Source: Nitrospira sp. MA-1 (GTDB taxonomy: Bacteria; Nitrospirota; Nitrospiria; Nitrospirales; UBA8639). Taken from it: 64,000 bases of DNA. The stretch spans positions 248,001 to 312,000 of the forward strand of contig JAQJDB010000006.1 in NCBI GenBank assembly GCA_032139905.1, in the 5' to 3' direction. Below, one piece after another: positions 41,006-48,143 of the stretch. The notes beneath the pieces were generated by a model. It did no database searches and had not been told where the DNA came from. It worked only from the letters and a program-made list of their open reading frames with translations. Positions within the stretch are counted from its first letter, which is position 1. The number at the start of each line of letters is the position of its first letter. A program made the translations under genes and the position numbers.

Positions 41006-42175
41006 ATGAATATCTCTGAACTCTCGAAACACGTTCCGGTTTCTTTAGGAGACCGGAGCTACCACGTTCTTATCCAACCGCATATTCTGCCTCAGATTGG
41101 CCGTGTGCTTCAGGATGTTGGATTATCCGGTCAAGTTGCCATTGTGACCAATTCAATCGTCAATGAGCTCTACGGTCGAGTCGTTTTCCGGTCCTTGAAG
41201 CGGTGCGGGTTTTCTCCATTTTTTGTTGTGATTCCCGATGGAGAAAAAGCTAAATCTATGTATTGGCTGTCAAAAATACTGGATGAACTGGTCAGGCAAC
41301 GACTTGAGCGCCAGGAAGTGGTGTTGGCGTTAGGTGGGGGGGTCGTGGGAGATGTGGCTGGATTTGCGGCCTCTGTCTATCTGCGCGGTGTTCCCTTCGT
41401 CCAAGTCCCGACGACATTGGTGGCTCAGGTAGATTCGAGCGTGGGTGGAAAAACAGGGGTCAACCATCCAATAGGAAAAAATTTGGTCGGCGCATTTTAT
41501 CAGCCACGTGTCGTTGTCGTTGATCCGCAGGCGTTGCAATCTCTTCCGAAACGTGAATGGGTCGCAGGTTTAGCGGAGGTGATTAAGTATGGCATGATTG
41601 CCGATCCGAAATTTTTTGAATATTTAGAGCAAAACATAGATGGCTTACGAGAACAAGCAGAGGATGTGATCCCTACCGTCATTCGGCGGTGTTGTGAAAT
41701 TAAAGCCGAAGTTGTGGGTGGAGATGAACGGGAATCGGGGCGCCGCCGAATTTTGAATTATGGCCATACCGTAGGCCATGCACTGGAAACCTGGGGACGC
41801 TATAAAACATGGATTCATGGAGAGGCTGTGGGAATCGGCATGGTGCAGGAAGCCGCAATGGCGCAATTTTTAGGGATGTGTACTAATGAGCTTGTTGAGC
41901 GGCAACGTGATTTGATTCAGGATGTCGGGTTGCCCATTGCTATGCCTTCAATGACATTCATGGATCTCTGGGGGGCCATGCAACATGACAAAAAGGTGGT
42001 AAAGGGCCAAATCAATTGCGTGGTACCCACCTCAATTGGGAATGTCCAAGTTGTGCCCCTTGTTCGGCAACGTATTCGTCAATGGTTCACTGCCAGTCAG
42101 TCCTCCCGCGTGAAACGATTGAAGTCCGTTCCAGAGACATTGAGTCGTCCACGTCTATCCAGGAAACAAAAATAA
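41006..42175 (+). CDS. aroB: 3-dehydroquinate synthase
   Basis: Second shikimate step, DAHP to 3-dehydroquinate, using NAD+ and a divalent metal. The 389 residues include the NAD-binding LALGGGVVGDVAGFAASVYLRGV, the VPTTLVAQVDSSVGGKTGVNHP phosphate loop, and metal ligands in EVIKYGMI, LNYGHTVGHALE and WIHGEAVGIGM. A basic C-terminal tail of about 20 residues exceeds the usual end. It adjoins the pil genes as aroK-aroB does in pseudomonads, and ends one base before the next gene. Confidence 0.95.
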   Translation: MNISELSKHVPVSLGDRSYHVLIQPHILPQIGRVLQDVGLSGQVAIVTNSIVNELYGRVVFRSLKRCGFSPFFVVIPDGEKAKSMYWLSKILDELVRQRLERQEVVLALGGGVVGDVAGFAASVYLRGVPFVQVPTTLVAQVDSSVGGKTGVNHPIGKNLVGAFYQPRVVVVDPQALQSLPKREWVAGLAEVIKYGMIADPKFFEYLEQNIDGLREQAEDVIPTVIRRCCEIKAEVVGGDERESGRRRILNYGHTVGHALETWGRYKTWIHGEAVGIGMVQEAAMAQFLGMCTNELVERQRDLIQDVGLPIAMPSMTFMDLWGAMQHDKKVVKGQINCVVPTSIGNVQVVPLVRQRIRQWFTASQSSRVKRLKSVPETLSRPRLSRKQK

Positions 42176-42176
42176 C

Positions 42177-43430
42177 ATGGCTCATGTCCGTCCTTCGACC
42201 ATAGAAGACCTGAAGCACCTCGTTCGGGAACGGAGCCGTGAAGTGCAGATTCTTCACCGAATCAGCGAATCCATAAGTGGTTCTTTGGAGCTGGAAACAG
42301 TATTAAAGCAAATAGTGGAGGTGGTTGTTGAAGTGACGAAGGGGGATGCCTGTCTGTTGTATTTGATCTCTGAAACAACAGACGAACTTATTCTGCGTGC
42401 ATCAAAAAATCCTCATCCCCGGCTCATCGGGCGGATATCTATTGGTCTGGGTGAAGGGATTACCGGATGGGTGGCACGAGAAAAAGTTCCAGTGGTGATT
42501 TCCCGCAATGCAAGTGATGACGCCAGATTTAAGTTTTTTCATCGTCTGCCGGAAGATCGTTTTCAGGCGTTTGTGTCAGTTCCCATCACAAGTAAGGGGA
42601 GAATGATCGGAGTCATCAATGTTCAGCATAAGCGGCCGAAACGGTATGCCGAAGAAACGCTAGCCCTCTTACTGACCATTGCTAATCAAGTCGGCGGAGC
42701 CATTGCCAATGCCAGATTGTATGATGATATGCGGCAAAAAGCGCGCCGGCTTGAAACTCTTTCCCAAGTGTCGGAAACTGTGGCGTCTAATCGACTGATA
42801 GAGGATGTGCTGCAATTAATTGTGACTATGACCGCTCAGCTGATGAATTCAAAGATCTGCTCGATCATGCTGGTCGACCAGGCTTCTGGGGAACTTCGCA
42901 TTGCTGCCACTCAAAGTCTGAGCGATGCGTACCGGCGGAAGCCACCCTTGAAGGTTGGGCAGAGCATGAGTGGTCGGGCTGTGCAGGATCACCATCCGGT
43001 GTATGTCTCGGATGTAAAGGCGGAAGAGGGATATTTTTATCGGGATTTGGCGAAACAGGAAGGATTGCATTCTTTATTGTCCATCCCCATGCTCATGAAA
43101 GAAAATCCGATTGGGGTGATAAATGTATACACTTCCAGTTACCATGCGTTTTCAGATGAAGAAGTGATCACGCTTCAAGCCATTGCGAATCAATCCGCCG
43201 TCGCCATAGAGCACACTCGGCTTATGGAAAAATCGTTTGAGATGCAGGAGGCCCTGGAAGTGCGAAAATTGGTAGAGCGTGCTAAGGGATTTTTAATGGC
43301 GTCTAGGGGATTGTCAGAACCTGAAGCGTTTCGTCTTATGCAACGACAAAGCATGAATCTTCGAAAATCCATGAGAGAAATTGCAGATGCGATTATCCTC
43401 GCGGAGGAACTTCAACGGGCGACTCAGTAG
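42177..43430 (+). CDS. GAF-GAF-ANTAR transcription antitermination regulator
   Basis: Likely cytoplasmic RNA-binding antiterminator of 417 residues. A short coiled coil at the N-terminus is followed by GAF 1 (about 28-175, with GLGEGITGWVAREKVPVVI and FVSVPITSKGRMIGVINVQHK) and GAF 2 (about 195-350, with GQSMSGRAVQDHHPVYVSDVK and LSIPMLMKENPIGVINVYTS). The C-terminus is an ANTAR domain (about 352-412; RKLVERAKGFLMASRGLSEPEAFRLMQRQSM), a three-helix unit known to bind dual hexaloop RNA hairpins. GAF domains often bind small ligands or sense redox state; the ligand is unknown. It starts one base after aroB and lies immediately upstream of the nadE leader, which carries the expected ANTAR target. 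Confidence 0.92.
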   Translation: MAHVRPSTIEDLKHLVRERSREVQILHRISESISGSLELETVLKQIVEVVVEVTKGDACLLYLISETTDELILRASKNPHPRLIGRISIGLGEGITGWVAREKVPVVISRNASDDARFKFFHRLPEDRFQAFVSVPITSKGRMIGVINVQHKRPKRYAEETLALLLTIANQVGGAIANARLYDDMRQKARRLETLSQVSETVASNRLIEDVLQLIVTMTAQLMNSKICSIMLVDQASGELRIAATQSLSDAYRRKPPLKVGQSMSGRAVQDHHPVYVSDVKAEEGYFYRDLAKQEGLHSLLSIPMLMKENPIGVINVYTSSYHAFSDEEVITLQAIANQSAVAIEHTRLMEKSFEMQEALEVRKLVERAKGFLMASRGLSEPEAFRLMQRQSMNLRKSMREIADAIILAEELQRATQ

Positions 43431-43480: not shown

Positions 43481-43509
43481 TTGAACGGACTCTTCATCAC
43501 TTGTATAAT
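43481..43509 (+). promoter_or_regulatory. Sigma70 promoter for nadE-glnD
   Basis: -35 TTGAAC (43481-43486, 5 of 6), a 17-base spacer, and a perfect -10 TATAAT (43504-43509). The predicted start point is near 43516, so the transcript would begin almost exactly at the first leader hairpin. Confidence 0.85.
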
Positions 43510-43516
43510 ACGCTGA

Positions 43517-43570
43517 AGGGCGACAACGACGTCTTCCTGTATATGTTAGCTCAAAGGACAATGGCGTCCT
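43517..43570 (+). promoter_or_regulatory. Putative ANTAR-binding dual hexaloop RNA motif
   Basis: Hairpin P1 spans 43517-43538. AGGG and GAC pair with GTC and TCCT around one C/T mismatch, closing loop AACGAC. Hairpin P2 spans 43555-43570. AGGAC pairs with GTCCT, closing loop AATGGC. Both loops have six bases with A at position 1 and G at position 4, the published ANTAR signature. A 16-base linker separates them. The P2 3' strand (43566-43570) is also part of the terminator 5' strand, so P2 and the terminator cannot form together. Confidence 0.8.
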
Positions 43571-43601
43571 CGGTTCCGCTGGGACAGAGGACGTTTTTTT
43601 T
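43565..43601 (+). terminator. Leader intrinsic terminator upstream of nadE (attenuator)
   Basis: CGTCCTC (43565-43571) pairs with GAGGACG (43587-43593). Inside it GTTCC (43573-43577) pairs with GGGAC (43581-43585) around loop GCT, followed by eight T residues (43594-43601). It is a strong rho-independent terminator that ends three bases before the nadE ATG. It also contains the only Shine-Dalgarno-like GAGG, so it may block translation as well as transcription. Confidence 0.88.
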
Positions 43602-43604
43602 ATC

Positions 43605-45395
43605 ATGATGCTTCGATTAGCAATGGTGCAGATGAATGCGGTCGTTGGGGATCTAGAGGGGAACACGCGCACCATTTGCGGATGGATTCGCGAGGCCAAA
43701 AAAGCCAAAGCGGATGTGGTGGTCTTTCCGGAATTGGCGGTGTGTGGATATCCTCCAGAAGATCTTCTCCTCATGCCCCAGTTTCTATTTAATATAAGTC
43801 GGATGCGGGACCGTATTGCCAAGGTCACGAAGGGGATTATGGCCGTAGTGGGAAGCGTAATCGAATCTGATCGTCCTGCTCAACATTCCATCCTGGGCTC
43901 CGGGCTTGATCGAAGGAAGCCCTTAAATGCGGCGTGGGTTTTGGTCGATGGACAGGTGAAAAGATCATATGCCAAATCAAAGTTGCCCAATTATGGAGTG
44001 TTTGATGAAGAACGGTATTTTCAACCGGGACGAACCAGTCCGGTCTACTGCCTGGGCCCGTTACGTATCGGAATCAATATTTGTGAGGATATATGGTTTG
44101 CCAATGGTCCGGCCAGCCAGCAGGCAGCGTATGGCGGTGCTCAGCTTATCCTAAACATCAATGCTTCTCCTTATCACATTGGGAAAACCCAAAGTCGTGA
44201 ACACATGTTGGCGGTTCGGGCTAAGGCTAACAATGTAATGGTTAGTTATACCAATATGGTTGGAGGCCAGGATGAATTGGTCTTTGATGGGAATAGTCTC
44301 GTCATGGATTCCACCGGTCGAATACTTGCGCGGGCAAAAGCCTTTAAAGAAGATTTCTTGCTTACCGACCTCAATATTCCGTCAATACGAAAGGGGAAAT
44401 TCAAAAGGTCTGGAAAAGAACCTGAATTCGATGCCGATGAGGTTCGGATTCCGATGATTCGCATGGGATGGACACCAACGTGGCCGAAGTCTGGAGTTCC
44501 AAGTGTCATAAGGCTCACACCGGTAATCGGAGAGATGGAAGAAATCTACCGGGCACTCGTGCTGGGAGTGCAAGATTATGTGAGGAAGAATGCCTTCTCC
44601 AGGGTTCTTGTCGGTATCAGCGGAGGGATTGATTCGGCTTTGACCGCATTGATTGCCCGAGATGCTTTAGGCGCGTCCAATGTCATGGGTGTCATGATGC
44701 CATCCCCCTATACTTCTAAGGAAAGTCGTGAGGATGCTCGCCGGCTAGGGAAAAAATTAGGAATCGATATGCGGAGTCTTTCAATATCAGGCGTATTCAA
44801 GACTTTTCTTCGGGTGTTGGGCAAATCCTTTCACGGCTGTCAGGCTGATACGACAGAAGAAAATCTCCAAGCCCGCATCCGAGGAACCCTGCTGATGGCT
44901 CTTTCCAATAAGTTCGGATACTTAGTGCTGACGACGGGGAATAAAAGCGAAATGAGTGTGGGGTATGCCACACTGTATGGGGATATGGCTGGAGGGTTTG
45001 CCGTTATCAAAGACATTCCCAAAACAAAAGTGTATCAGCTTTCTCGATGGCGAAGCGAGTATAGGGGCTCTTGTTTTGATCGAGTGATTATTCCAGAAAG
45101 AATTCAGGTGCGCGCCCCTTCCGCTGAGTTGAGGCCTGATCAGACAGATCAGGATGCCCTCCCTCCCTATCCGGTGTTAGATGCCATTCTTCAAGCCTAT
45201 GTTGAGGACAATGAGTCAATGAGTAGGATTGTGAAGATGGGCTATGATTCTCATGTTGTCCGAACGGTAATGGGGATGGTAGATCGCAGCGAGTACAAGC
45301 GTCGACAAGCGCCAGTGGGCATTAAAATTACTTCGAGAGCGTTAGGAAAAGATCGGCGGATGCCGATTACGAACCGATATGTTTCGGGAGATTAA
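43605..45395 (+). CDS. nadE: Glutamine-dependent NAD+ synthetase
   Basis: Amidates nicotinate adenine dinucleotide to NAD+ using ammonia from glutamine. The 596 residues combine an N-terminal nitrilase-like glutaminase (about 1-270) with a C-terminal ATP-pyrophosphatase synthetase (about 315-590). The glutaminase Glu is in FPELAVCGYPPEDLL (Glu43), Lys in SKLPNYGVFDE and Cys in GINICEDIWF. The synthetase has the P-loop SGGIDSALTALIA and TTGNKSEMSVGYATLYGDMAGG. Tandem ATG codons at 43605 and 43608 follow the leader terminator directly. glnD follows after 27 bases, so the two genes are likely co-transcribed under the leader. Confidence 0.96.
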   Translation: MMLRLAMVQMNAVVGDLEGNTRTICGWIREAKKAKADVVVFPELAVCGYPPEDLLLMPQFLFNISRMRDRIAKVTKGIMAVVGSVIESDRPAQHSILGSGLDRRKPLNAAWVLVDGQVKRSYAKSKLPNYGVFDEERYFQPGRTSPVYCLGPLRIGINICEDIWFANGPASQQAAYGGAQLILNINASPYHIGKTQSREHMLAVRAKANNVMVSYTNMVGGQDELVFDGNSLVMDSTGRILARAKAFKEDFLLTDLNIPSIRKGKFKRSGKEPEFDADEVRIPMIRMGWTPTWPKSGVPSVIRLTPVIGEMEEIYRALVLGVQDYVRKNAFSRVLVGISGGIDSALTALIARDALGASNVMGVMMPSPYTSKESREDARRLGKKLGIDMRSLSISGVFKTFLRVLGKSFHGCQADTTEENLQARIRGTLLMALSNKFGYLVLTTGNKSEMSVGYATLYGDMAGGFAVIKDIPKTKVYQLSRWRSEYRGSCFDRVIIPERIQVRAPSAELRPDQTDQDALPPYPVLDAILQAYVEDNESMSRIVKMGYDSHVVRTVMGMVDRSEYKRRQAPVGIKITSRALGKDRRMPITNRYVSGD

Positions 45396-45422: not shown

Positions 45423-48143
45423 GTGGAGTTACCTTCTGTGAGTGAAGACCTTCCTTTGACCCCTCCCGGTTTAACGGAACACAAGGACTCCTATCTGGGG
45501 CTTCACCTTCTCCAGGAACAGCGGGAGTTTCTTCGGCAACGATTAATCGAAGGGGCGATGGGCAGTGAAATCACACAGGCTTTTTCAGATTTTATGGATG
45601 CCTTACTAATCACGCGGTTTCGTGAGGTCATTCAGCAAGGCAATGCCGGTGTACGCGCTGGCTGGCAGCAGTGTTGTTTAGTGGCCATGGGGGGGTATGG
45701 GCGGCGGGAGTTAGCTCCATATTCCGACATCGATGTCATGATTCTCACTCAGGGCAATCAAGGAGAAGTCGCTGAGGCGCTTTCAACCGGAGTTTTTCAC
45801 CGGCTTTGGGATCTTGGGTTTCAAGTTGGGCATAGTGTGCGGTCCCTCGCAGAATGCCTGACGATCGCAGAGGCCGACCTCGCTGCCTGTACCTCACTGA
45901 TGGAAGCACGATTTCTTATTGGCAGTGCTTCAGTGTTTCAGGAATTTCAACGAAAATTCGCACGTCGGATCATCAAGAAGCGAGCGCAACGGTTTGTTCT
46001 CGATAAAATCCAAGAGCGGGAGAGAGAATATGCCAAATTTGGTGAGACGGTATTTATGCTCGAGCCGAATATTAAAAAAAGTAAGGGGGGGCTACGTGAT
46101 CTGCATTTGTTGCAATGGATTGGCCAGGCTCGATATGGGGCGGGGACGATTCAAGAACTCTCGAATCGGGGAATAATTGCTATTCAGGATTATCAGGTTC
46201 TGCAGGATGCACAGGAATTTCTATGGCGAGTTCGGTGTTTTTTACATTTTGAAGCGGGACGGGCTCAAGATATCCTCACGTTTGACGATCAGGTTCGGCT
46301 CTCTGCACTTTGGGGATTTGTGGATCATCCTCATTTGCTGGCCGTTGAGCAATTTATGCAAGTGTATTTCCGTCATACGACCGGATTGTTTGACCGTGGG
46401 CGGCGGTTTCTTGATCAAGCCAGAAAGGGAACTTGGCTTGACCGGGTCCGGCGATGGTGCCCTTCCCCATTAATCGAAGGGCATTTCCGTATTCTAGAAA
46501 ATCGGTTGACAATTCAGACCGATAAATTACTTGAGGTGATGGAAAGCCCCATGTTGCTTCTTAAGTTATTTATGGTCTCTCATCGTCAGGCTGTCCCCAT
46601 CGATTCGTGCATTCTCAATGAATTGTCCCAGCACATGGGAACCCTACCCAATGAACAGTTTCATATCAAATCGGTGAGTGGACTTTTTCGACACATTTTG
46701 TCAACCCCTGGTCGGATAGCTCAAACTCTTGAGGCCATGCATCAGGCCGGTCTACTGGAAAAACTCGTGCCAGCTTTCTCCAGAGTACGTGGCCTCATGC
46801 AGTTCAATCAATATCATAAATACACGGTTGATGAGCACAGTCTGCTCGCAGTGAGGGAAGCGGAGCGCCTCCAGAATCATCAAGGAATAATAGGGGAAGT
46901 CTACCGGAACATCCCTGATAAAGACATCTTGCATTTGGCACTGTTGCTTCATGATTTAGGCAAAGGGCGTCCTGGGGATCATAGTGAAGTCGGCCAGGAG
47001 ATTGCCCACCTAACGGCTGATCGGTTGGATTTGTCTGAGAAGGAACGACAGGCTCTGGCATTCCTGGTTCGCCACCATTTGCAGATGTCTCATACGGCTT
47101 TTCGTCGAGACCTGAACGATCCGAAAACGATTGTCACATTCGCTCGAACTGTGAAAACCGTCGGGATCCTTCAGAAGCTCTTCATTCTGACGATTGCAGA
47201 TATATCAGCGGTGGGACCTGAGGTGATGACGAAATGGAAGGAGTCCCTGTTGGGTGAACTGTATTCCCTGACCTACGCAGAGCTCGCCGGGGACACAGGT
47301 CCATCTAATTCCGGTGATTGGAGTAAGAATATTTCGCCCGAAGCTCGAAATGAACTTATCGGGATTTTAAGGAATTATCGAGGCGAAGGACGTTATCCTG
47401 AATTCGACTGGACGGAACGGGTGAATGCCACACTTCAACAACTTCCCGGTCGGTATGTTCAATCGACACCGGTTGGCCAGATGGCTGCGTATCTTTTAGC
47501 CATTCAATCTCTGCCTGTAAAGTCGACCCAAGTGGAGGCAAGATTCAATCAAACGTTAGGGGTATCGGAGTACGTGCTGATCACGCGGGAACAGACCAAG
47601 CCGGGAATTTTCATGCAAGTGGCGGGAGTATTAGCCACCATGGGATTGCAGGTATTGGAAGCGCAAATTATGACACTCAAGGATGGCACGGTGTGGGATG
47701 TGTTTTCGGTCTACGATTCTGATTATGAAGGGCCGCCATCTGTCGGTCGCCTAGAGGAGGTGGCGAAGGAGATTCAACAGGTCGTGGAGGGAAGGCAATC
47801 AGTGCATCAATTGGTTGAACGACGACGGCGCATGGCCTTTGGCCGTCCCTTTCCAACTGGCCGGCATCCCACGGAAGTCCATATTGATCAGGGGGTATCC
47901 GATGCTTATACGGTGATTGACATCTTTGCCGATGACAAGCAAGGGCTACTCTTTGTGATCGCTAAAACGCTGGTTCAATTGGATCTCTCAATTCATATGG
48001 CGAGAATCGGGACTAGGTTAGATCAGGTGGCTGATGTCTTTTATGTAACCGACTCCCATGGAGAAAAAATTCTTTCCGTTGAAAACTGTGAGCAAATTCA
48101 ACATACTCTTCATGCCGCTGTTGATCAATTTCTGGATGAATAA
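45423..48143 (+). CDS. glnD: Bifunctional uridylyltransferase/uridylyl-removing enzyme GlnD
   Basis: Senses glutamine and modifies or demodifies PII signalling protein. The 906 residues start at GTG 45423. The nucleotidyltransferase domain has GGYGRRELAPYSDIDVM (from about residue 90). The middle region has the GlnD-specific MLEPNIKKSKGGLRDLH. The HD domain has LLHDLGKGRPGDHSEVGQEIA (about residue 508). Two C-terminal ACT domains follow (YVLITREQTKPGIFMQVAGVLA and YTVIDIFADDKQGLLFVIAKTL). All domains are intact. Its location behind nadE and an ANTAR-type leader is unusual and suggests joint nitrogen/NAD control. Confidence 0.96.
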   Translation: MELPSVSEDLPLTPPGLTEHKDSYLGLHLLQEQREFLRQRLIEGAMGSEITQAFSDFMDALLITRFREVIQQGNAGVRAGWQQCCLVAMGGYGRRELAPYSDIDVMILTQGNQGEVAEALSTGVFHRLWDLGFQVGHSVRSLAECLTIAEADLAACTSLMEARFLIGSASVFQEFQRKFARRIIKKRAQRFVLDKIQEREREYAKFGETVFMLEPNIKKSKGGLRDLHLLQWIGQARYGAGTIQELSNRGIIAIQDYQVLQDAQEFLWRVRCFLHFEAGRAQDILTFDDQVRLSALWGFVDHPHLLAVEQFMQVYFRHTTGLFDRGRRFLDQARKGTWLDRVRRWCPSPLIEGHFRILENRLTIQTDKLLEVMESPMLLLKLFMVSHRQAVPIDSCILNELSQHMGTLPNEQFHIKSVSGLFRHILSTPGRIAQTLEAMHQAGLLEKLVPAFSRVRGLMQFNQYHKYTVDEHSLLAVREAERLQNHQGIIGEVYRNIPDKDILHLALLLHDLGKGRPGDHSEVGQEIAHLTADRLDLSEKERQALAFLVRHHLQMSHTAFRRDLNDPKTIVTFARTVKTVGILQKLFILTIADISAVGPEVMTKWKESLLGELYSLTYAELAGDTGPSNSGDWSKNISPEARNELIGILRNYRGEGRYPEFDWTERVNATLQQLPGRYVQSTPVGQMAAYLLAIQSLPVKSTQVEARFNQTLGVSEYVLITREQTKPGIFMQVAGVLATMGLQVLEAQIMTLKDGTVWDVFSVYDSDYEGPPSVGRLEEVAKEIQQVVEGRQSVHQLVERRRRMAFGRPFPTGRHPTEVHIDQGVSDAYTVIDIFADDKQGLLFVIAKTLVQLDLSIHMARIGTRLDQVADVFYVTDSHGEKILSVENCEQIQHTLHAAVDQFLDE

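Follow-up and report, generated by a model that had tools for sequence, protein, structure and literature searches.

A predicted ANTAR-type antitermination leader upstream of nadE-glnD in Nitrospira sp. MA-1 and its relationship to other nitrogen operons of the Nitrospirales

In soils, waters, and treatment plants, nitrite oxidation is driven by bacteria of the Nitrospira group, yet little is known of how they regulate their own supply of nitrogen. In Nitrospira sp. MA-1 the genes for NAD+ synthetase (nadE) and GlnD are preceded by a short leader containing two hairpins and a terminator, and a gene coding for an ANTAR-domain protein lies just upstream. What is this leader for, and is nadE-glnD the only operon with such a device? 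An initial annotation, made from the sequence alone, inferred that the ANTAR protein controls both genes by antitermination. Here, we examine the locus in a 64,000-nucleotide stretch of DNA (the window), together with the rest of the genome and its relatives. It is very probable that the leader serves nadE-glnD as an ANTAR-type antitermination switch and that the same protein controls two other operons. The features of the locus are as follows.

42177-43430, + strand: gene for a 417 aa GAF-GAF-ANTAR protein, a likely RNA-binding antiterminator (Pfam GAF twice and PF03861; orthologues across the order)
43481-43509, + strand: sigma-70-type promoter, TTGAAC-17-TATAAT (shuffle test; similar -35/-10 spacing in relatives)
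43517-43538, + strand: P1, putative recruitment hairpin with hexaloop AACGAC (A1, G4) and a closing C-G pair (covariation in 31 nadE and 40 non-nadE leaders)
43539-43554, + strand: P1-P2 linker of 16 nt (from the sequence)
43555-43570, + strand: P2, putative antiterminator hairpin AGGAC[AATGGC]GTCCT (A1, G4) (core paired in 29/29 rows; -5.6 kcal/mol)
43565-43601, + strand: intrinsic terminator with eight T, mutually exclusive with P2 (-17.8 kcal/mol; base of the stem paired in 29/29 rows)
43605-45395, + strand: nadE, glutamine-dependent NAD+ synthetase, predicted controlled gene (NF010588, TIGR00552)
45423-48143, + strand: glnD, [protein-PII] uridylyltransferase, predicted controlled gene (TIGR01693; nadE-glnD synteny in relatives)

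The promoter, the two hexaloops, and the terminator had all been reported in the initial annotation, and each is present where it was placed. The promoter has a -35 box at 43481-43486 and a -10 box at 43504-43509, separated by 17 nt, and matches at 10 of 12 positions, with 0.5 sites this good expected in shuffled sequence. The P1 and P2 loops occupy positions 43525-43530 and 43560-43565, respectively. None of 200 shuffles equalled the stability of the terminator stem (43565-43593), which is followed by the T run at 43594-43601. The annotated overlap is also borne out: the P2 3′ arm (43566-43570) lies inside the terminator 5′ arm (43565-43571), and none of the 29 aligned rows has lost this arrangement. 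P1 is imperfect in the window, with three base pairs (GAC/GUC), a C-U mismatch, and then four base pairs, and is not cleanly chosen in the minimum-energy fold of the leader, as the energy model favors another fold; support for its reality thus comes from relatives. No Rfam family matches the window leader at the gathering threshold.

Pfam confirms the domain composition given to the upstream gene, the ANTAR domain scoring 73.7 bits against a cut-off of 27.3, and this is the only ANTAR domain in the 4.76-Mb genome. The gene stops at 43430, leaving 50 bases up to the -35 box, and the gap from nadE to glnD is 27 nt. On the other side (41006-42177 of the window), aroB ends one base ahead of the ANTAR start codon, and the arrangement aroC-aroB-ANTAR is retained across much of the taxonomic order, such that shikimate genes and the regulator may share a transcript. 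In one relative (L028, genome G103), the ANTAR gene is separated from the nadE leader by tandem repeats of ~93 bp (AGGCGACCTGTTATCATC...).

Two covariance models were used, R1, whose training set included 29 nadE leaders, and R2, trained solely on genera other than that of the window. R2 identifies the exact leader site in the window at 60 bits (E=2.3e-14; runner-up 7 bits), which excludes a chance origin of the leader. Over the whole genome R2 gives three matches (60, 47.7, and 37.8 bits; the fourth scores 14.1), and R1 recovers the identical three sites.

Comparison of relatives shows the loops to be strongly conserved. The G at loop position 4 is invariant in 36/36 aligned leaders, in P1 and P2 alike, and position 1 is A in 35/36 for P1 and 30/36 for P2, with all exceptions being G. 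The C-G pair closing the loop is also invariant (31/31 and 40/40 for P1, 29/29 for P2). Two points speak against the ANTAR reading: in some f2/f3 relatives with G at P2 loop position 1, pairing of G1 with C6 could reduce the loop to a tetraloop, and in genus g2 P2 is kept and P1 is not clear. P1 covaries in the 31 nadE leaders, with 26 double-changed cells versus 11.3 after shuffling (none of 500 shuffles as high), and all slid registers score far below the true one. For 40 leaders mostly of other genes the values are 94 versus 35.7 cells and a score of 0.765 versus 0.252 (0/500), although this count is biased towards structure because the leaders were found with a model of that structure. The P2 core and the terminator 5′ arm share bases, and both foldings are kept in 29/29 rows of alignment A2; the P2 stem alone is nearly invariant and thus gives no covariation signal.

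The spacing of P1 and P2 is variable, ranging from 12 to ~38 nt in relatives. This also speaks against the ANTAR reading, as in eutP an additional 20 nt between P1 and P2 abolished antitermination (PMC8934654). All seven linkers of at least 30 nt (L081, L087, L091, L105, L122, L127, and L129) fold at -9 kcal/mol or better, but a compensating hairpin in these long linkers was dropped as a candidate because most of them hardly outdo dinucleotide-shuffled sequence.

In another interpretation, the element is real and ANTAR-bound but acts mainly on translation, with opening of the terminator also exposing a GAGG in the 3′ arm that serves as ribosome-binding site for nadE. In the window's genus this GAGG is indeed 10-14 nt ahead of the start of nadE, and Ramesh et al. 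describe ANTAR sites near ribosome-binding sites (PMC3369931), but in many relatives the terminator is ~20-180 nt upstream of nadE, too far away to mask the start, and a run of 7-9 T is what a terminator would have. We consider a mainly translational role improbable.

An orthologue of the ANTAR protein is present in ~110 of 147 genomes of the order, being missing from most of genus g12 and from g13, and none of the 37 genomes lacking the orthologue has an ANTAR domain of any sort. The covariance search proposed in the initial annotation shows the motif to be conserved before nadE: it is present in ~89 of ~105 ANTAR-positive genomes with a readable nadE, versus none of 27 loci read in ANTAR-less relatives, where the best score is 8.2 bits. 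Detection is circular for the 29 nadE leaders that trained R1, and each of these was also read by eye. Loss of the loop positions or of the P2-terminator overlap in close relatives keeping the ANTAR gene had been named as grounds for rejection; most lineages retain both features, but a minority have lost the nadE element. The ~16 ANTAR-positive genomes without it belong mainly to g19 and g2, with some in g12, and several genomes lacking the nadE element retain a copy before porin-amtB.

A phylum-wide scan of 246 genomes gives an R1 match (E<=0.01) in 66, and an ANTAR domain is encoded in 99. Seven R1-positive genomes have no ANTAR domain, of which six are near noise and one (G090) looks real. 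This genome has a single strong orphan copy behind ureD (L195:4578-4672, - strand, 61 bits), perhaps a relic of recent ANTAR loss. G146 also has a weak element match despite the absence of ANTAR. In other parts of the phylum, several genomes without ANTAR (G235, G237, G245, G279, G309, and G313) have matches with E of ~1e-3, which were treated as noise. No element was found near the ANTAR genes of six genomes of the same class outside the order (L297-L302), and the regulon is thus documented for the order only.

These distributions bear on a simpler interpretation, in which the terminator merely closes an aroB-ANTAR operon, the hairpins regulate nothing, and nadE expression depends on a different promoter or on read-through. 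The terminator is indeed directly 3′ of the ANTAR gene, with aroB-ANTAR upstream on the same strand. However, the element stays with nadE where the ANTAR gene is distant (by ~19 kb in G122 and ~18 kb in G051, as well as in others), it also heads several other operons, P1 covaries, and the nadE loci of ANTAR-less relatives have no element, leaving little room for a plain operon end. Least credible is that the leader is used by an RNA-binding protein other than the neighboring ANTAR protein, a possibility that draws on the absence of direct binding evidence and is countered by the single ANTAR domain in the genome and by the joint presence or absence of element and ANTAR gene across the order, with the G090 orphan as the clear exception and the G146 match as a weak one.

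The reading of the leader as an ANTAR-type switch extends to the other two matches in the genome. The second (L178) lies before genes for a formate/nitrite-family transporter and a nitrite/sulfite-type reductase, termed nirA, and the third (L198) before porin-amtB-glnK-amtB-glnA. Targets in relatives include nadE, porin-amtB, a transporter with cyanase and nirA, a urea ABC transporter, and an NrtA/SsuA-like ABC transporter of uncertain substrate. Several f3 genomes have one element-headed cluster, nadE-amtB-glnK-glnD-glnA; in the window genome this f3-type set is split in two, with one copy of the element for each part, which would explain why nadE adjoins glnD. Because the element precedes genes for ammonium, nitrite, and urea uptake and almost never occurs without the ANTAR gene, it looks, as far as sequence comparison can tell, like one shared nitrogen-assimilation switch with nadE-glnD as one target among several. 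The inference that the ANTAR protein controls nadE and glnD by antitermination thus has comparative support, but was drawn too narrowly, as these genes are only part of a larger nitrogen regulon.

The cultured N. moscoviensis also has the ANTAR orthologue, with the element before nadE (64 bits), two elements in tandem before an NrtA-like gene, and a weak copy before amtB (22 bits). Most of its nitrogen genes are clustered in one region, and with nitrite as sole nitrogen source the clustered nitrogen genes are strongly expressed, except for the urea genes and one amtB (PMC6606698). These transcriptomes fit release of termination when ammonium is absent, but do not prove it.

A mechanism can be proposed from the observed anatomy, the P2/terminator exclusivity evident in the sequence, the covariation, the co-occurrence, and the identity of the regulon genes. 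Transcription would start just upstream of P1, and by default the nascent RNA would fold the strong terminator and stop ahead of nadE-glnD; termination is the expected default since P2 is the weaker structure (-5.6 versus -17.8 kcal/mol), and read-through requires that P2 be stabilized. When the GAF-GAF-ANTAR protein is active, presumably under nitrogen shortage, a dimer would bind the P1 hexaloop first and P2 second. The bound P2 stem would then be held, and because its 3′ arm is also the terminator 5′ arm, polymerase would read through into nadE and glnD. The copies of the element at porin-amtB-glnK-amtB-glnA and nitrite-transporter-nirA are predicted to place both operons under the same protein. 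RNA binding, the direction of control, and the order of binding are inferred from EutV and NasR, with no binding, transcript, or mutant data. In EutV, one hexaloop is bound at a time, with P1 recruiting and P2 antiterminating (PMC8934654).

EutV contacts RNA through K143, K147, R168, M172, N173, R175, and R177 (PMC8934654), and the window protein has K, R, Q, M, N, R, and S at these positions, assuming a numbering offset of 2. Arg168 and Arg177 are therefore unconserved, which counts against ANTAR antitermination, and Rv1626 likewise has Q and T at these two positions. The first GAF domain is nearest to that of PtsP (NCBIfam PRK11061, E=9e-40; PDB 3ci6, E=5e-24). The PtsP GAF domain is reported to bind glutamine in Sinorhizobium, and inhibition by glutamine is also described for E. 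coli and Caulobacter (PMC4848567), making glutamine a reasonable, though untested, guess for a signal that may be sensed through the first GAF domain. It is possible, but rather doubtful, that in most Nitrospirales, one large genus excepted, this single protein is the chief regulator responding to nitrogen status, that it senses glutamine directly through the PtsP-like GAF domain, and that it acts purely by antitermination on genes for ammonium, nitrite, and urea use and NAD+ synthesis.

The closest mechanistic parallel is the EutV/eutP system of Enterococcus faecalis (PMC3369931, PMC8934654), which shares the paired A1/G4 hexaloop hairpins, the mutual exclusion of P2 and an intrinsic terminator, and several controlled leaders per genome. 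However, EutV is a phosphorylated response regulator with ethanolamine targets, whereas the window protein is a one-component GAF-GAF protein with a predicted nitrogen-assimilation regulon. NasR/nasF of Klebsiella oxytoca (PMC7496416) shares a one-component ANTAR regulator, nitrogen assimilation, the A1/G4 loop, and the C-G closing pair, which was found by SELEX for NasR loops (PMC7496416). NasR differs in sensing nitrate through a NIT domain and in having one known operon, as compared with two GAF domains and at least three predicted operons, including nadE-glnD. NasR and PAL are the only characterized one-component ANTAR proteins named in PMC7496416, and a GAF-GAF input thus has no described example there; nor did we find a characterized GAF-ANTAR protein in the literature.

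Ramesh et al. (2012) predicted regulons in Desulfotomaculum acetoxidans and Pelobacter that likewise include P-II, ammonium, urea, and nitrite transporters, nitrite reductase, and glutamine-related genes (PMC3369931). The mechanism and the nitrogen theme are therefore already known, but nadE-glnD appears to be a new ANTAR target: the main text of that paper names neither nadE nor glnD nor Nitrospira (supplementary tables not covered), and literature searches on ANTAR with Nitrospira, NAD synthetase, or glnD gave nothing relevant. A tie between NAD+ synthetase and the P-II nitrogen signal is shared with Azospirillum (PMC7196632), and nadE is often clustered with P-II genes; in Azospirillum, NadE activity is controlled through protein-protein interaction (PMC7196632), whereas control at the window locus is inferred to be transcriptional. 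NAD+ synthetase and GlnD would thus join the ANTAR targets, with transcription linking the supply of NAD+ to nitrogen status, and the GAF-ANTAR class would gain a concrete regulon. For the Nitrospira group, a regulator can now be named, its RNA element defined, and the predicted targets listed, including those in the cultured N. moscoviensis.

The element also varies in architecture. In the nitrite-transporter/nirA leader of the window genome (L178:1428-1519) the P2 loop has seven bases, AATGATC, and the corresponding leader in G043, G067, and G048 also has a seven-base P2 loop. In family f2 (L132-L139), ~200 nt before nadE, there is a tandem pair of terminators together with three hairpins bearing hexaloops – TAGCAC[RNNGNN]GTGCTA, GAC[GAYGGC]GTC, and GGAC[NNTGNC]GTCC – constituting a doubled attenuator. 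Tandem elements lie before NrtA-like ABC transporter or transporter-cyanase-nirA genes at L179, L180, L183, L184, L185, L189, and L306/L307, and two tandem copies precede an uncharacterized lipoprotein gene of ~306 aa in g15 genomes (L182:7589-7772 and L166:1409-1589).
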